DNA from: a virus
Reading direction: 5' to 3' (one strand)
Length of the DNA stretch: 45,793 bases
Virus record (IMG/VR): IMGVR_UViG_3300028769_000153
Span: 1 to 45,793 of that record
Of this stretch, positions 1,441-43,174 are shown in pieces. Below the pieces are notes generated by a model. It worked only from the letters and a program-made list of their open reading frames with translations. It made no database searches and was not told the origin of the DNA. Positions within the stretch are counted from its first letter, which is position 1. Each line of letters opens with the position of its first letter. Both the position numbers and the translations under genes were made by a program.

Positions 1441-1445
1441 ATTAG

Positions 1446-1519
1446 TGATTCCTAAAGGATTCAAACCTTTAACCGCTGCCTTAGAAAGACAATGCTCTAT
1501 TCGGTTGAGCTAAGGAACC
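1446..1519 (-). tRNA. tRNA-Arg (anticodon TCT)
   Basis: A complete cloverleaf on the minus strand: acceptor GGTTCCT/AGGAATC (7 pairs, one G-U), D-stem GCTC/GAGC, anticodon stem TTGTC/GGCAG with loop TTTCTAA (anticodon TCT, reads AGA), 5-nt variable loop, and T-arm AAAGG-TTTGAAT-CCTTT. The discriminator is A and CCA is not encoded. AGA is the common arginine codon in most genes here, so this tRNA probably supplements the host pool. Confidence 0.92.
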
Positions 1520-2582: not shown

Positions 2583-3098
2583 CTAAAAAGGTAGATCAGA
2601 TTCTTGACTAATGCACAACTCTTGCCATTCACATTGCTTCATATCAATCAAATCAGAGCCTCTATCAATCATCAGATCAAATATCATTCGCTTTTCTTTT
2701 GGTTTTATTCCATTCAGCATATTGCTTGCTATTTTTGAGTATACTTTTAGATTTGCCGTTGATATTTTATTTGGCCTAACTTCAATTAATTTTCCTATAA
2801 ACCAATTATATGCCAGAATATGCTTGGAATCATATGCTAATGTTTTCATCCATAGCGTAATATATTCAAGATTTTCCATTGGCTTTATATCTCCATTGAA
2901 TCTATAAATATTTTTATTTCCGCTTAATGATATAGCTTGTTTGCCGCCCATTGAATTTATCCAATATTTTGAAACTGGTTGATTTGTTTCAAGTATTAGT
3001 GCATTTGCATACTCGTTGAATGACTTGAATAGGAATTCTATCTTTTTACCAAAGGCTGCTAATGTTATTATTGACCCTTTTTCTATTTTTTCATACAC
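2583..3098 (-). CDS. Conserved-looking phage protein, unknown function
   Basis: 171 residues, soluble, mixed alpha/beta composition, Lys-rich, no membrane segment. The C-terminal third (KPKEKRMIFDLMIDRGSDLIDM) looks helical. It is the first protein gene after the permuted tmRNA; the tmRNA terminator-like hairpin lies 30-90 nt upstream, and the leader carries the recurring TTAAAATCAAT element about 12 nt before the start codon. It heads a tight operon with the 42-residue protein, the phosphoesterase and the basic protein. I do not recognise the family. Confidence 0.75.
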   Translation of the reverse strand: MYEKIEKGSIITLAAFGKKIEFLFKSFNEYANALILETNQPVSKYWINSMGGKQAISLSGNKNIYRFNGDIKPMENLEYITLWMKTLAYDSKHILAYNWFIGKLIEVRPNKISTANLKVYSKIASNMLNGIKPKEKRMIFDLMIDRGSDLIDMKQCEWQELCISQESDLPF

Positions 3099-3127
3099 GA
3101 TTAAATTGATTTTAATTGTTAATGTTA

Positions 3128-3188
3128 TTTTAAAACCCTACCAGGGCTAATTGAATAGACGTGCGGCTCTCGCTCACGACCTGGTAGG
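3128..3188 (-). terminator. Stem-loop with T-run at the 3' end of the tmRNA coding piece
   Basis: On the minus strand a perfect 9-bp stem (CCTACCAGG with CCTGGTAGG, 3137-3188) holds a loop with a smaller CGTG/CACG hairpin and is followed by GTTTTAAAA. It begins about 12 nt after the tag stop codon. It could be an intrinsic terminator, a tmRNA helix or both. Confidence 0.6.
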
Positions 3189-3393
3189 TACGTTCTAAAT
3201 TATGCAGACATTAAGCCTACGTAATTGTTGATTTGGATTGTGTTGTTGCCAGTTAATTAGCGTGTGCAGTCCTATCTGGTTCATCTTATGCCGCTGTCAA
3301 ATCCAGGCAGCCCCTTATGGTTTTTTATAAGGAGTGGAGCTGGAGGGGATCGAACCCTCGTCCAAACGGCGAATCCGCAGCCTACGGGCCGTA
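3137..3393 (-). ncRNA. ssrA: Circularly permuted (two-piece) transfer-messenger RNA
   Basis: Read on the minus strand, the acceptor piece comes first (about 3393-3335): TTTGGACGAGGG, T-arm GAGGG-TTCGATC-CCCTC, then CAGCTCC and discriminator A. After a 20-nt AT-rich spacer (3334-3315) the coding piece starts at 3314 with GGGGCTGCCTGGATTTGACA, the classical tmRNA 5' end. GGGGCTG pairs with CAGCTCC over seven positions exactly as in bacterial tmRNA, so the halves belong together although their order is swapped. The tag frame lies at 3250-3200 and a stem-loop ends the piece. CCA is not encoded. Known permuted tmRNAs are processed into two RNAs held together by pairing; here the spacer would be removed. 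The acceptor piece starts right at the stop codon of the upstream gene, so co-transcription is likely. The exact outer ends are my estimate. Confidence 0.85.
3200..3250 (-). other. tmRNA proteolysis-tag reading frame
   Basis: A frame inside the tmRNA coding piece from the presumed resume codon GGC (3250) to TAA (3200) encodes GNNTIQINNYVGLMSA. The context TTAACT-GGC and a Gly resume codon resemble the Bacteroides tag (GENNYALAA-type, from memory). NNY is kept but the end is GLMSA instead of ALAA, and the tag is longer than usual. The resume codon is inferred by resemblance, not proven. Confidence 0.6.
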
Positions 3394-3876
3394 CTATTTT
3401 ACTATTTCTATGTAGAAATTAGCATTAATGTCTGTTGTTAGGAATCTATGCACTTGCAATGACGGTAATAATCTTACCTCCATTATTTTGTGCTCTAGTG
3501 AAAAACCTGTCAATTCAACACGTTTCCCCCATAGACTCTGTCTGCTTTCCATTGTTGGTCCGATTAGCATATCGTAAAGTTCCTTTTCAACACTTCCTCC
3601 TCGTCTTTTAGACAAATGAATATGTACTGACTTTACTCTGTTTAGCCTCTTTTCCAACAATATTAAGTTGATTCTTAATAATCTTTCTTGTTGAGATAAT
3701 CCTCTAAGAGAGACTCTGGTACCTGGATTGCATGAATCCCAGTTTGCATCTACGAAGCTACTTATCGTTTCTTCTTGTAAATGCAGCATTAGCGGCCTTA
3801 TAGCGGCTATTGCGTCTTGTTTGTTATCTGCTTCACCGATCAAAGTGATGGCGATCTGTTTTTGATCTTTTGTCAT
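3394..3876 (-). CDS. Unknown protein directly upstream of the tmRNA acceptor piece
   Basis: 160 residues, soluble and basic, predicted largely helical in the middle (LSQQERLLRINLILLEKRLNRVKSVHIHLSKRRGG). The C-terminal part looks beta-rich. I do not recognise the family. Its TAG stop abuts the first base of the conserved tmRNA acceptor piece, so mRNA and tmRNA would share a precursor. The start follows the recurring ATTAATCAAT-type leader and comes after the terminator-like hairpin at 3909-3955, so a promoter for this gene plus tmRNA should lie within about 35 nt upstream or transcription reads through. Confidence 0.72.
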   Translation of the reverse strand: MTKDQKQIAITLIGEADNKQDAIAAIRPLMLHLQEETISSFVDANWDSCNPGTRVSLRGLSQQERLLRINLILLEKRLNRVKSVHIHLSKRRGGSVEKELYDMLIGPTMESRQSLWGKRVELTGFSLEHKIMEVRLLPSLQVHRFLTTDINANFYIEIVK

Positions 3877-4393: not shown

Positions 4394-4409
4394 GTTATAT
4401 TGTTAAAAG

Positions 4410-4480
4410 TAGCCCCGCGTGGAATCAAACCACATTTACCGCGCTGAAAGTGCGATGTCCTATCAGTAGACGACAGGGCC
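4410..4480 (-). tRNA. tRNA-Glu (anticodon TTC)
   Basis: The minus strand reads as a near-canonical tRNA-Glu: acceptor GGCCCTG/CGGGGCT, D-arm with GTCT/GGAC, anticodon loop CTTTCAG (anticodon TTC), CGCGGTAAA and T-arm GTGG-TTTGATT-CCAC. The TCGTCTA and GGACATCGC segments match bacterial tRNA-Glu. One mismatch closes the anticodon stem. CCA is not encoded. A perfect hairpin (GACTAT-AA-ATAGTC, 4485-4498) precedes the 5' end. The rest of 4481-4613 shows nothing else I can name. Confidence 0.85.
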
Positions 4481-42116: not shown

Positions 42117-42743
42117 ATGAACATAAAATTAAGTATTTTAAAAATAGCCATTACTTCCGTACTGGCTATTTGTTCTTTAGGGGGTATAATAACCGGAATA
42201 AAGAACTATTACTCGCTGAAAGAACAATTAACTAACGAAACTAGCAATAGGAAGGCATATGAGAATATGAATTCAGCATTAAAGAATGATAAGCGTGTCC
42301 TAAGGCTATCTGTATCCGATTTAAGAGACTCAAATGATAAATACATACATTCTATGGATTCATTAAGAAAGTCGCTTAAATTGCCTAAGAAGAAGTCTGG
42401 TGACGTTTCTACGGGCATAAGTACTACTATTCACGACACTGCGTACGTAGAACTACCAAAACCAGCTGAATGCGACATAGATACCACCATAATTCATAAC
42501 GAATTTACAAATACCAGAGTTATTTTACACGAAAATCAACTAAAAGCAATACTTGATGTAAACAATACTGAGTATTTATACGTTTACTCATCGAGGGAGT
42601 TCGTAAATAGTAGGAAGGGATGGCTGGATAGGTTATTACATTTAGACTATAGGAAAGAAGATATAGAACGATATGAGATAGTTAATACCAATGATTTAAT
42701 TAAGGTAGGAGATGTTCGTATAATTAAAACAGTAGATAAATAA
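42117..42743 (+). CDS. Rz-like inner-membrane spanin candidate
   Basis: 208 residues. One N-terminal membrane helix (ILKIAITSVLAICSLGGIITG), then a long charged coiled coil (NYYSLKEQLTNETSNRKAYENMNSAL ...) and a C-terminal beta region. This matches inner-membrane spanins and the DUF6549-like proteins seen in Bacteroidetes phages. Spanins fuse inner and outer membranes in the last lysis step. No separate outer-membrane lipoprotein partner is visible inside it. Confidence 0.6.
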   Translation: MNIKLSILKIAITSVLAICSLGGIITGIKNYYSLKEQLTNETSNRKAYENMNSALKNDKRVLRLSVSDLRDSNDKYIHSMDSLRKSLKLPKKKSGDVSTGISTTIHDTAYVELPKPAECDIDTTIIHNEFTNTRVILHENQLKAILDVNNTEYLYVYSSREFVNSRKGWLDRLLHLDYRKEDIERYEIVNTNDLIKVGDVRIIKTVDK

Positions 42744-43174
42744 TGAAACTAGAATTAAAAAGGAAAGCATTAATGGATACCTATACCATAGGTGATCTGT
42801 TTTTAAATGACGTATTCTTCTGTAATGTACTTGAAGATACAGTCAGAGATTTGAACAAAGATGGCGATCTTGACGAAAAAGGGGAGGAGAAGGTTTATGG
42901 GCAAACTGCAATTCCTTATGGTACCTATACTATAGATCTTACTCATTCTAATAGATTTAAAAAAATACTTCCATTACTTGAAAATGTGAAAGGATTTGAA
43001 GGAATTAGAATTCATCCAGGCAATACCGCAGTAGATACTCATGGGTGTCTATTAGTTGGGAACAATACTGAAAAAGGAATGGTTACTGATTCTAGGAAGG
43101 TTTTTGAAAAACTAATGATTAGATTAGTAGACGCTCACGAAATGAAAGAAACAATTACAATTAAAATATCATAA
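42743..43174 (+). CDS. DUF5675-like lysis protein candidate
   Basis: 143 residues. The conserved LEDTVRDLNKDGDLDE and AIPYGTYTIDL, then GIRIHPGNTAVDTHGCLLVG resemble DUF5675. The HPGN ... THGC pair recalls L,D-transpeptidase-type active sites (His, then HGC with Cys). A peptidoglycan-acting endolysin is therefore plausible, also from its position after holin- and spanin-like genes. Its first ATG overlaps the previous stop by 1 nt (TAATG). Confidence 0.65.
   Translation: MKLELKRKALMDTYTIGDLFLNDVFFCNVLEDTVRDLNKDGDLDEKGEEKVYGQTAIPYGTYTIDLTHSNRFKKILPLLENVKGFEGIRIHPGNTAVDTHGCLLVGNNTEKGMVTDSRKVFEKLMIRLVDAHEMKETITIKIS

Follow-up and report, generated by a model that had tools for sequence, protein, structure and literature searches.

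The minus strand of a 45,793-nt stretch of viral DNA (hereafter "the window") carries, from position 3394 to 3136, a circularly permuted tmRNA gene in which an acceptor piece comes first and is followed by a 20-nt spacer and a coding piece. The locus is confirmed as a real permuted tmRNA, and its kind had been read correctly in the first-pass annotation, which claimed a phage-encoded two-piece tmRNA from the letters alone. We consider it likely (probability of about 0.8) that the gene yields a working tmRNA, which host enzymes would cut in two and charge with alanine and which would use host SmpB to rescue stalled ribosomes and add a 16-residue tag. The anatomy of the gene, the permuted order, compensatory pairing, a tag conserved in one close relative (L501) and the spread of the gene among related phages were observed directly.

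On the minus strand, a 160-aa ORF is followed by the acceptor piece, the spacer, the coding piece and a 171-aa ORF starting at 3098 (Table 1). The last base of the upstream ORF is 3394, which fits the outer end at 3393 that had been proposed for the gene. The T-arm TTCGATC, the acceptor strand CAGCTCC-A and the canonical tmRNA 5' end (GGGGCTGCCTGGATTTGACAG, beginning at 3314) all lie on the minus strand as claimed, and the two halves are indeed separated by 20 nt (3334-3315) and pair perfectly over the 7-bp acceptor stem (GGGGCTG/CAGCTCC, 7/7 pairs), which includes the G3-U70 wobble of alanine identity. The discriminator A at 3335 is followed by CTCC, and thus CCA is not encoded in the window. 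The acceptor-piece motif TACGGCCCGT is common to the window and its relatives L501 and L176. Helix P2, which joins the two pieces, might also form in an alternative register seen by eye, with GCCGTTTG (3370-3363) pairing with CAGCGGC (3296-3290). Following the general description of permuted tmRNA in the accessible part of PMC11915505, the spacer would be removed by tRNA-processing enzymes. The tRNA genes said to lie nearby were confirmed by ARAGORN, tRNA-Arg about 1.6 kb and tRNA-Glu about 1 kb from the tmRNA gene.

Table 1. Features of the permuted tmRNA locus in the window (positions are those of the window).
Feature	Position	Strand	Basis or remark
ORF, 160 aa, directly upstream	3394..3876	minus	without PHROGs family
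Acceptor piece: 3' half of tRNA-like domain, placed first	3335..3393 (5' end approximate)	minus	sequence, ARAGORN, RF04321, motif TACGGCCCGT
Helix P2, 3' side, joins the two pieces	3363..3372	minus	ARAGORN: TCGC.GTT (3372-3365) pairs with GAC.GCGG
T-arm GAGGG-TTCGATC-CCCTC	3343..3359	minus	sequence, ARAGORN
Acceptor stem, 3' strand CAGCTCC	3336..3342	minus	sequence; pair counts over loci
Intervening sequence (spacer), 20 nt	3315..3334	minus	sequence
Coding piece: 5' half of tRNA-like domain, resume site, tag frame, 3' structure	3136..3314 (3' end approximate)	minus	sequence, ARAGORN, RF04321, cofolds
Acceptor stem, 5' strand GGGGCTG	3308..3314	minus	sequence; G3-U70 wobble
Helix P2, 5' side	3290..3298	minus	ARAGORN: GAC.GCGG (3298-3291)
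Tag frame GNNTIQINNYVGLMSA with stop TAA; resume codon GGC	3200..3250	minus	ARAGORN; GEKTIQINNYVGLMSA in relative L501
3'-end structure	3138..3187	minus	single-sequence folds: outer stem CTACCAGG (3187-3180) / CCTGGTAG (3145-3138)
ORF, 171 aa, directly downstream	2583..3098	minus	without PHROGs family
tRNA-Arg(TCT)	1445..1519	minus	ARAGORN, Rfam
tRNA-Glu(TTC)	4409..4480	minus	ARAGORN, Rfam

ARAGORN calls a permuted tmRNA at 3109-3426 with the tag GNNTIQINNYVGLMSA, the outer ends of this call not being evidence of RNA ends. The covariance-model check proposed with the first-pass annotation came out in favor of the permuted form: Rfam model RF04321 (tmRNA_permuted) matches 3200-3382 with 55.7 bits (gathering score 47; E 2.8e-8 in the 45.8-kb window), and the standard tmRNA model RF00023 gives a partial match of 33.0 bits, below its cut-off of 47 (431-base scan), which rules out a one-piece gene misread as permuted. 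Chance is ruled out by the RF04321 score together with covariation of the acceptor stem. Across 22 loci this stem is paired in 154 of 154 cells, a percentage that is biased because the tools or scan behind most of the loci search for this very pairing. The covariation is less biased: there are eight different stems, in which pairs 4 to 7 vary on both strands, and the G-U at pair 3 is kept in all 22 loci. When 5' and 3' strands were swapped between loci with different stems, full pairing was found in 40 of 398 combinations. Single-sequence cofolds of the two halves recovered the acceptor stem in 5/5 cases and a canonical T-arm in 1/5; with the shortest pair, an equally good fold was reached by 18 of 500 shuffles.

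The outer stem of the 3'-end structure encloses an arm and a T-loop-like TTCAATT (3155-3149). In single-sequence folds of the window and three relatives, this stem is different in the relatives yet paired in all three. The structure may be a worn-down tRNA-like element; judging from the folds, a degenerate tRNA-like element, a pseudoknot or part of a terminator are all possible. Our scan for tRNA-like elements did not pick it up.

The window phage is classified as crAss-like from its gene content: PHROGs matches include a terminase (phrog_6681) and a major head protein (phrog_11589), and a stretch of the terminase gene (1-2% of a 25-kb query) matches four records at 73-75%, including cr1_1 and cr115_1, both Crassvirales of the Suoliviridae. 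According to the consulted portion of a review (PMC10136315), crAss-like phages (Crassvirales) infect Bacteroidetes. One record, G001 (IMGVR_UViG_3300030002_000003; 93,235 bases), has a 100% match for the head protein and for the 160-aa neighbor and encodes the same tag (L173); G001 probably represents the same virus, and our counts of relatives include it. The search with the 160-aa neighbor returned one near-identical record only. In the close relative L501 (genome G006), the last 13 residues of the tag GEKTIQINNYVGLMSA are identical to those of the window tag, the codons for Tyr and Val differing synonymously between the two. By eye, the upstream gene ends alike in L501, so the genomic place seems to be shared.

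The window gene belongs to a family that is wider and more unusual than the window alone shows. A head-protein search of IMG/VR returned 122 relatives, from which 80 loci were kept, and the records of 47 of the 80 were searched, those omitted being mostly short. At E up to 0.001, RF04321 found matches in 10 of these records (five above the cut-off), leaving nine permuted genes by this model after one match, L179 (G007, 20.8 bits), was discounted as chance: it has no ARAGORN tmRNA and no fitting pair of pieces, its one pair being 687 nt apart and without the D-loop motif. RF00023 gave 12 partial matches at E up to 0.001 in the 47 records and none above the cut-off (0/47). A second, profile-based scan listed 80 loci, of which the 18 unseen ones were searched; these further records yielded one weak RF04321 match, L430 (G463, 18.6 bits), which was also judged chance, having neither an ARAGORN tmRNA nor a fitting pair.

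Ten of the 47 records (G006, G010, G017, G023, G024, G026, G034, G035, G037, and G044) were read in slices for structure, a procedure that can overlook a gene spanning a slice border; G023, G034, G037, and G044 were read without their last 3.0, 1.7, 1.1, and 1.8 kb, respectively, and the final 0.25 kb of G035 followed at a later stage. Only through these slices did five further records of the 47 prove positive. Permuted tmRNAs in G006, G026, G034, and G035, all missed by RF04321, were found by the structural scan, and the one in G023 by ARAGORN. None was detected by covariance model and structural scan in G010, G017, G024, G037, or G044 (for G037 and G044 the scan stopped 1.1 and 1.8 kb short of the end). 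The structural scan gave 2 and 4 matches in shuffled sequence (200 x 20 kb, one strand) and missed L177, a gene that ARAGORN finds; one of its matches, L500 (tag EKVIRLVEEAM), was dropped as probable chance. Overall, among the 65 records, 11 of the 16 that are at least 85 kb long carry the gene (G001, G006, G020, G022, G023, G025, G026, G034, G035, G042, and G046). The five in which none was found are G017, G037, G044, G453, and G462, the last two searched with the RF04321 covariance model alone. Most other negative records are short fragments.

The permuted order also occurs outside IMG/VR. A distant blastn search of the GenBank phage collection gave 17 records including duplicates, of which 10 were fetched; with cr115_1, examined in addition, eight GenBank phage records have a permuted gene. 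Six of these already carry a tmRNA annotation that does not mention permutation, and ARAGORN reads all six as permuted: cr50_1, cr10_1, cr125_1 (RF04321 46.3 bits, just under the cut-off), cr114_1, cr115_1, and Chryseobacterium phage MA9V-3 (PV245944.1). Thus, the window gene is not the first in a Bacteroidetes phage, and the statement in the first-pass annotation that none was known does not stand. In cr53_1 and a Bohxovirus, RF04321 matches with 50.3 and 70.6 bits at places with neither a tmRNA annotation nor an ARAGORN call. The cr115_1 annotation (42525-42886) coincides with the ARAGORN call in G022, so the two are taken to be the same virus. MA9V-3 is not called crAss-like, since it has no match to the head-protein alignment. 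The six annotated genes have the same tag style as the window, whereas their spacers are longer (60 to 214 nt versus 20 nt), and the five from Crassvirales have a tRNA-like element after the tag, unlike the window. A Staphylococcus-labeled GenBank record turned out to contain a tRNA array rather than a tmRNA. Cellulophaga phages phi38:1 and Calle_1 have a one-piece tmRNA instead (ARAGORN, RF00023); it shares with the one-piece tmRNAs of Bacteroidota the T-arm GGACGAGGGTTCGANYCCCTC and TTTTGACAG, found also in the window gene, and many of these one-piece genes have a Gly resume codon as well, but none of them is permuted.

Phage-encoded two-piece tmRNAs as such are already known. The accessible text of PMC9004378 describes 53 two-piece forms among 133 unique phage tmRNA structures, 50 of them from marine or aquatic samples; one example is Methylophilales phage Melnitz, whose tmRNA, like that of the window, is phage-encoded and called two-piece by ARAGORN. 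A tree in that text places the marine phage two-piece tmRNAs with Alphaproteobacteria, Gammaproteobacteria or Cyanobacteria. No glutamine riboswitch was found above the Rfam cut-offs in the window, which differs in this respect from the Melnitz-type marine phage system. Bacterial permuted tmRNAs (RF04321, which merges the alphaproteobacterial, betaproteobacterial and cyanobacterial models) have the same order of acceptor piece, spacer and coding piece, and the window scores above the cut-off of this model; in contrast to them, its 5' half has TTTGACAG and a Gly resume codon. The portion of PMC11915505 at hand lists 79 bacteriophage tmRNA sequences, and crAss-like entries may be among them because its viruses came from RefSeq. 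The consulted parts of PMC4131195 and PMC4383926 name earlier phage tmRNAs or none, and the word tmRNA was absent from the available text of PMC7886860 and, by term search, from that of the Crassvirales review PMC10136315. The Pharokka paper (PMC9805569) ran a pipeline with Aragorn on 673 crAss-like genomes, and its accessible part gives no tmRNA count. In the open-access literature, we found no paper on tmRNA in crAss-like phages (subscription papers were outside the search).

What is new here is, in part, the architecture of the relatives, in which tRNA genes, an ORF or a group I intron lie inside the gene and in which 16 of 22 loci have a tRNA-like element past the tag. For example, in G034 (L549, G034:C1:47500-50200, 1001-1776) a group I intron match (RF00028, 76.8 bits) begins in the T-loop; joining the flanks restores the T-arm GAGGG-TTCGACT-CCCTC and gives an intron of 766 nt, whose opposite strand carries an ORF for an HNH endonuclease (PF01844, 38.4 bits). 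By eye, the intron sits directly after base seven of the T-loop, which, according to the part of PMC11915505 available, is where introns of one-piece tmRNA are most often known to lie; the combination of permutation and group I intron is absent from the forms tabulated in the seen part of this 2025 tmRNA database paper. In G035 (L548, G035:C1:99000-100253), where the T-arm is interrupted, a second RF00028 match (54.6 bits) precedes that arm on its upstream side and is truncated by the end of the contig. Spacer cargo includes a tRNA-His in cr114_1 (L195, 2543-2614; RF00005 63.1 bits), a tRNA-Tyr in L176 (1558-1627; RF00005 46.3 bits) and an 84-aa ORF in L508 (minus strand, about 19213-18960) whose frame extends into the coding piece. 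A tRNA within the spacer is described, in the accessible sections of PMC11915505, as a unique feature of one nominally archaeal gene. Pfam gave no match for the ORF beside the G035 intron or for the L508 spacer ORF.

A tRNA or a minimal acceptor-plus-T-arm element lies within 150 nt past the tag stop in the 16 loci (L171, L174, L194, L195, L531, and others), compared with a background of 386 in 12,716 scanned segments (tRNA genes included) and 80 in 4,400 shuffles; among the 16, the T-arm of L508 is poor and the listed 5' strand of L170 is not the nearest. By the scan rule, the window is one of the six loci without such an element. A possible role of the element is that of a 3' processing signal. 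Three genomes have odd T-loops: TAGCATCAT in L176, TAGCATAT in L501 and CTCGAAA in L508. In all three the D-loop GG reads AG (by eye), and its loss together with that of the canonical T-loop points to an altered elbow in the tRNA-like domain. Pairing of the T-stem is nevertheless kept in L176 and L501. These T-loops indicate that the gene can drift. Both intron-bearing genes and two of the three odd-T-loop genes were missed by RF04321 and ARAGORN, and the RF04321 match of L176 is below the cut-off. As a separate observation, RAGATH-9, -20, and -22 RNAs and hatchet ribozymes occur above Rfam cut-offs in tmRNA stretches of Crassvirales-type genomes (L192-L196, L174, L175, L178, L525, and L531).

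Our survey of bacteria sampled the phylum to which G048, a Paraprevotella genome, belongs. RF00023 scored above the cut-off in 60 of 61 phylum genomes, and RF04321 did so in 1 of 395 (L317), in a survey with stricter filters and five candidates scored per genome, in which weak permuted genes might escape notice. RF04321 matched 32 of the 395 genomes at E up to 0.001; the best 12 of these 32 comprise one permuted and 11 standard tmRNAs by ARAGORN. A host-borne permuted tmRNA was rejected, as the single genome of the 395 above the cut-off has its gene among phage genes: a head protein of the crAss-like family lies about 70 kb away (E 5.7e-77), and genes for phage-type DNA polymerase A, a DnaB-like protein, RIIA and an exonuclease are close by, so we read L317 as part of a crAss-like prophage. 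This apparent prophage (L317, L347-L349, and L555; G289:C1, about 915-1010 kb) lies on a bacterial contig of 1.6 Mb and includes the permuted tmRNA along with two tRNAs. The phage-type T-arm pattern occurs in at least 117 stretches of bacterial genomes, and ARAGORN called 95 of the 117 matches listed as standard only and 3 as both standard and permuted, with no call for 19. Permuted calls at L202, L244, and L299 overlap a standard tmRNA at the same place and were set aside as artifacts. By name, 75 of the 80 titles among the matches listed presumably belong to Bacteroidota or Chlorobiota.

To place the phage genes, we compared the tRNA-like domains of 16 of them (14 taken from ARAGORN and two cut by hand; L176 and later-found genes were left out) with all 60 one-piece tmRNAs of the phylum above the cut-off and with 77 permuted tmRNAs from 87 viral contigs. 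The second new result is that the whole domain is nearer to one-piece Bacteroidota tmRNA than to the permuted tmRNAs of other phages in 15 of 16 genes, with one tie. The 5' half is nearest to one-piece tmRNA in 16/16; the 3' half does not decide (seven nearest to one-piece tmRNA, seven ties and two nearest to other phages' permuted genes). A Gly resume codon is present in 15 of the 16 phage genes, in 20 of the 60 one-piece genes and in 6 of the 77 permuted genes of other phages. An earlier comparison with the 30 best-scoring phylum tmRNAs had put the 3' half mostly nearer to other phages' permuted genes and given a mixed result for the 5' half; it was replaced by the set of all 60 because those 30 were not typical of the phylum.

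These comparisons suggest, without amounting to proof, that tmRNA was permuted independently in these phages, whose gene may have been remade from a one-piece tmRNA of their Bacteroidetes hosts. Tentatively, and at slightly less than even odds, we propose that Crassvirales and their kin hold a separate, fourth permuted lineage of tmRNA, which arose within phages from Bacteroidota one-piece tmRNA, and that the gene has become a nest: in relatives, a group I intron with an endonuclease gene interrupts the T-loop of an already permuted tmRNA, the spacer houses whole tRNA genes or an ORF, and immediately past the coding piece stands a tRNA or minimal tRNA-like element by which its 3' end would be defined, so that tRNA enzymes would cut one transcript at several places. 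The chief competitor, which is compatible with a working tmRNA and which we regard as rather unlikely, is that a permuted tmRNA came from Alphaproteobacteria, Betaproteobacteria or Cyanobacteria, whether directly or by way of another phage, and was then adapted to Bacteroidota. The nearness of the whole domain and the 5' half to one-piece tmRNA and the rarity of the Gly resume codon among other phages' permuted genes argue against acquisition, whereas the undecided 3' half leaves room for it.

Tree tests bear on both origins and are trusted little, because trees of one and the same split differed by 15 log units between runs. They use 55 columns, with phage sequences standing in for the alphaproteobacterial and cyanobacterial genes and none for the betaproteobacterial ones; the cyanobacterial type is one we assign on the assumption that a tag motif marks it. 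In favor of acquisition, a single clade of all permuted tmRNAs is only weakly rejected with all rows included (p-AU 0.041), and omission of four odd rows (L003, L017, L037, and L077) changes the outcome (p-AU 0.177 and 0.070 for the same split from either side). The search is not settled, as the log-likelihood loss for this split was 16.6 in one test and 1.1 in the other. Grouping of these phages with cyanobacterial-type permuted genes is not rejected either (p-AU 0.118), and a clade of these phages with only the Gly-tag one-piece tmRNAs is rejected (p-AU 0.003), so that no simple place inside that group was found. On the other side, a clade of these phages with non-cyanobacterial-type permuted genes is rejected (p-AU 0.010), though the latter alone are not rejected as a clade (p-AU 0.263), and grouping of these phages with one-piece tmRNAs against the other permuted genes is not rejected (p-AU 0.479). 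These phages alone as a clade have p-AU 0.55 and 0.41. L037 and L077, two of the odd rows, are viral contigs whose permuted tmRNAs belong to a further type (tags GEQVEMAMAA and EQVELAMAA, TTTGACAGG). If the lineage is separate, tmRNA permutation arose again, this time in viruses, which raises the question of why phages keep a permuted rescue RNA with its own longer tag where the hosts have a one-piece form.

For the working tmRNA that we favor, a role in trans-translation is the natural reading of the sequence, from which we infer expression, processing, charging, tagging and a benefit to the phage. Within one folded transcript, a tRNA-Ala-like domain would be built from the acceptor piece together with the 5' end of the coding piece. 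The 20-nt spacer would be cut out by RNase P and 3' tRNA-processing enzymes of the host, the host would add CCA, and its alanyl-tRNA synthetase would charge the RNA via G3-U70. The charged RNA, with host SmpB and EF-Tu, would enter stalled ribosomes, add the tag GNNTIQINNYVGLMSA and release the ribosomes. Most likely, this would keep ribosomes circulating during infection with a tag under phage control. No phage-encoded SmpB was detected in 28 phage records including the window (0/28; control genomes 10/14), and we therefore assume that host SmpB is needed. Patchy presence in relatives, the odd T-loops, the weak cofolds and the CCA that is not encoded speak against a working tmRNA. MA9V-3, with its named Chryseobacterium host, makes the system testable.

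The lack of SmpB genes in these records would suit a decoy or inhibitor, an RNA that binds SmpB or AlaRS and mainly competes with host tmRNA rather than tagging. A precedent is given in the available part of PMC11915505, where a tag-less form from phage DS6A inhibited endogenous tmRNA in E. coli. The window gene, however, keeps a resume site, an open tag frame and a stop, and the tag peptide is conserved in L501 whereas a decoy needs no tag, which makes this explanation improbable. We consider it very unlikely that the gene is a degenerate, functionless passenger captured from a host tmRNA by recombination: patchy presence and the T-loops of L176, L501, and L508 would fit, as would the use of tmRNA genes as integration sites (noted in the text at hand of PMC11915505), but there are eight distinct, fully paired acceptor stems and a conserved tag in L501, and a captured copy would not be permuted, because the tmRNAs of the host phylum are one-piece.

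The tags themselves differ from those of the hosts. They are 12-18 aa long in 21 phage permuted genes (L501 excluded) compared with 9-10 aa in 59 of the 60 one-piece phylum tmRNAs, and they end in AA in 12/21 versus 58/60. Being longer and less often ending in AA, the phage tags may be handled differently by host proteases. Two further observations concern coding in the related phages. Anticodon-CTA tRNAs (reported by ARAGORN as tRNA-Pyl) occur at L185 and L533 (same genome), L521, and L524 and are possibly TAG suppressors. Some head-protein rows of related phages contain an in-frame stop.
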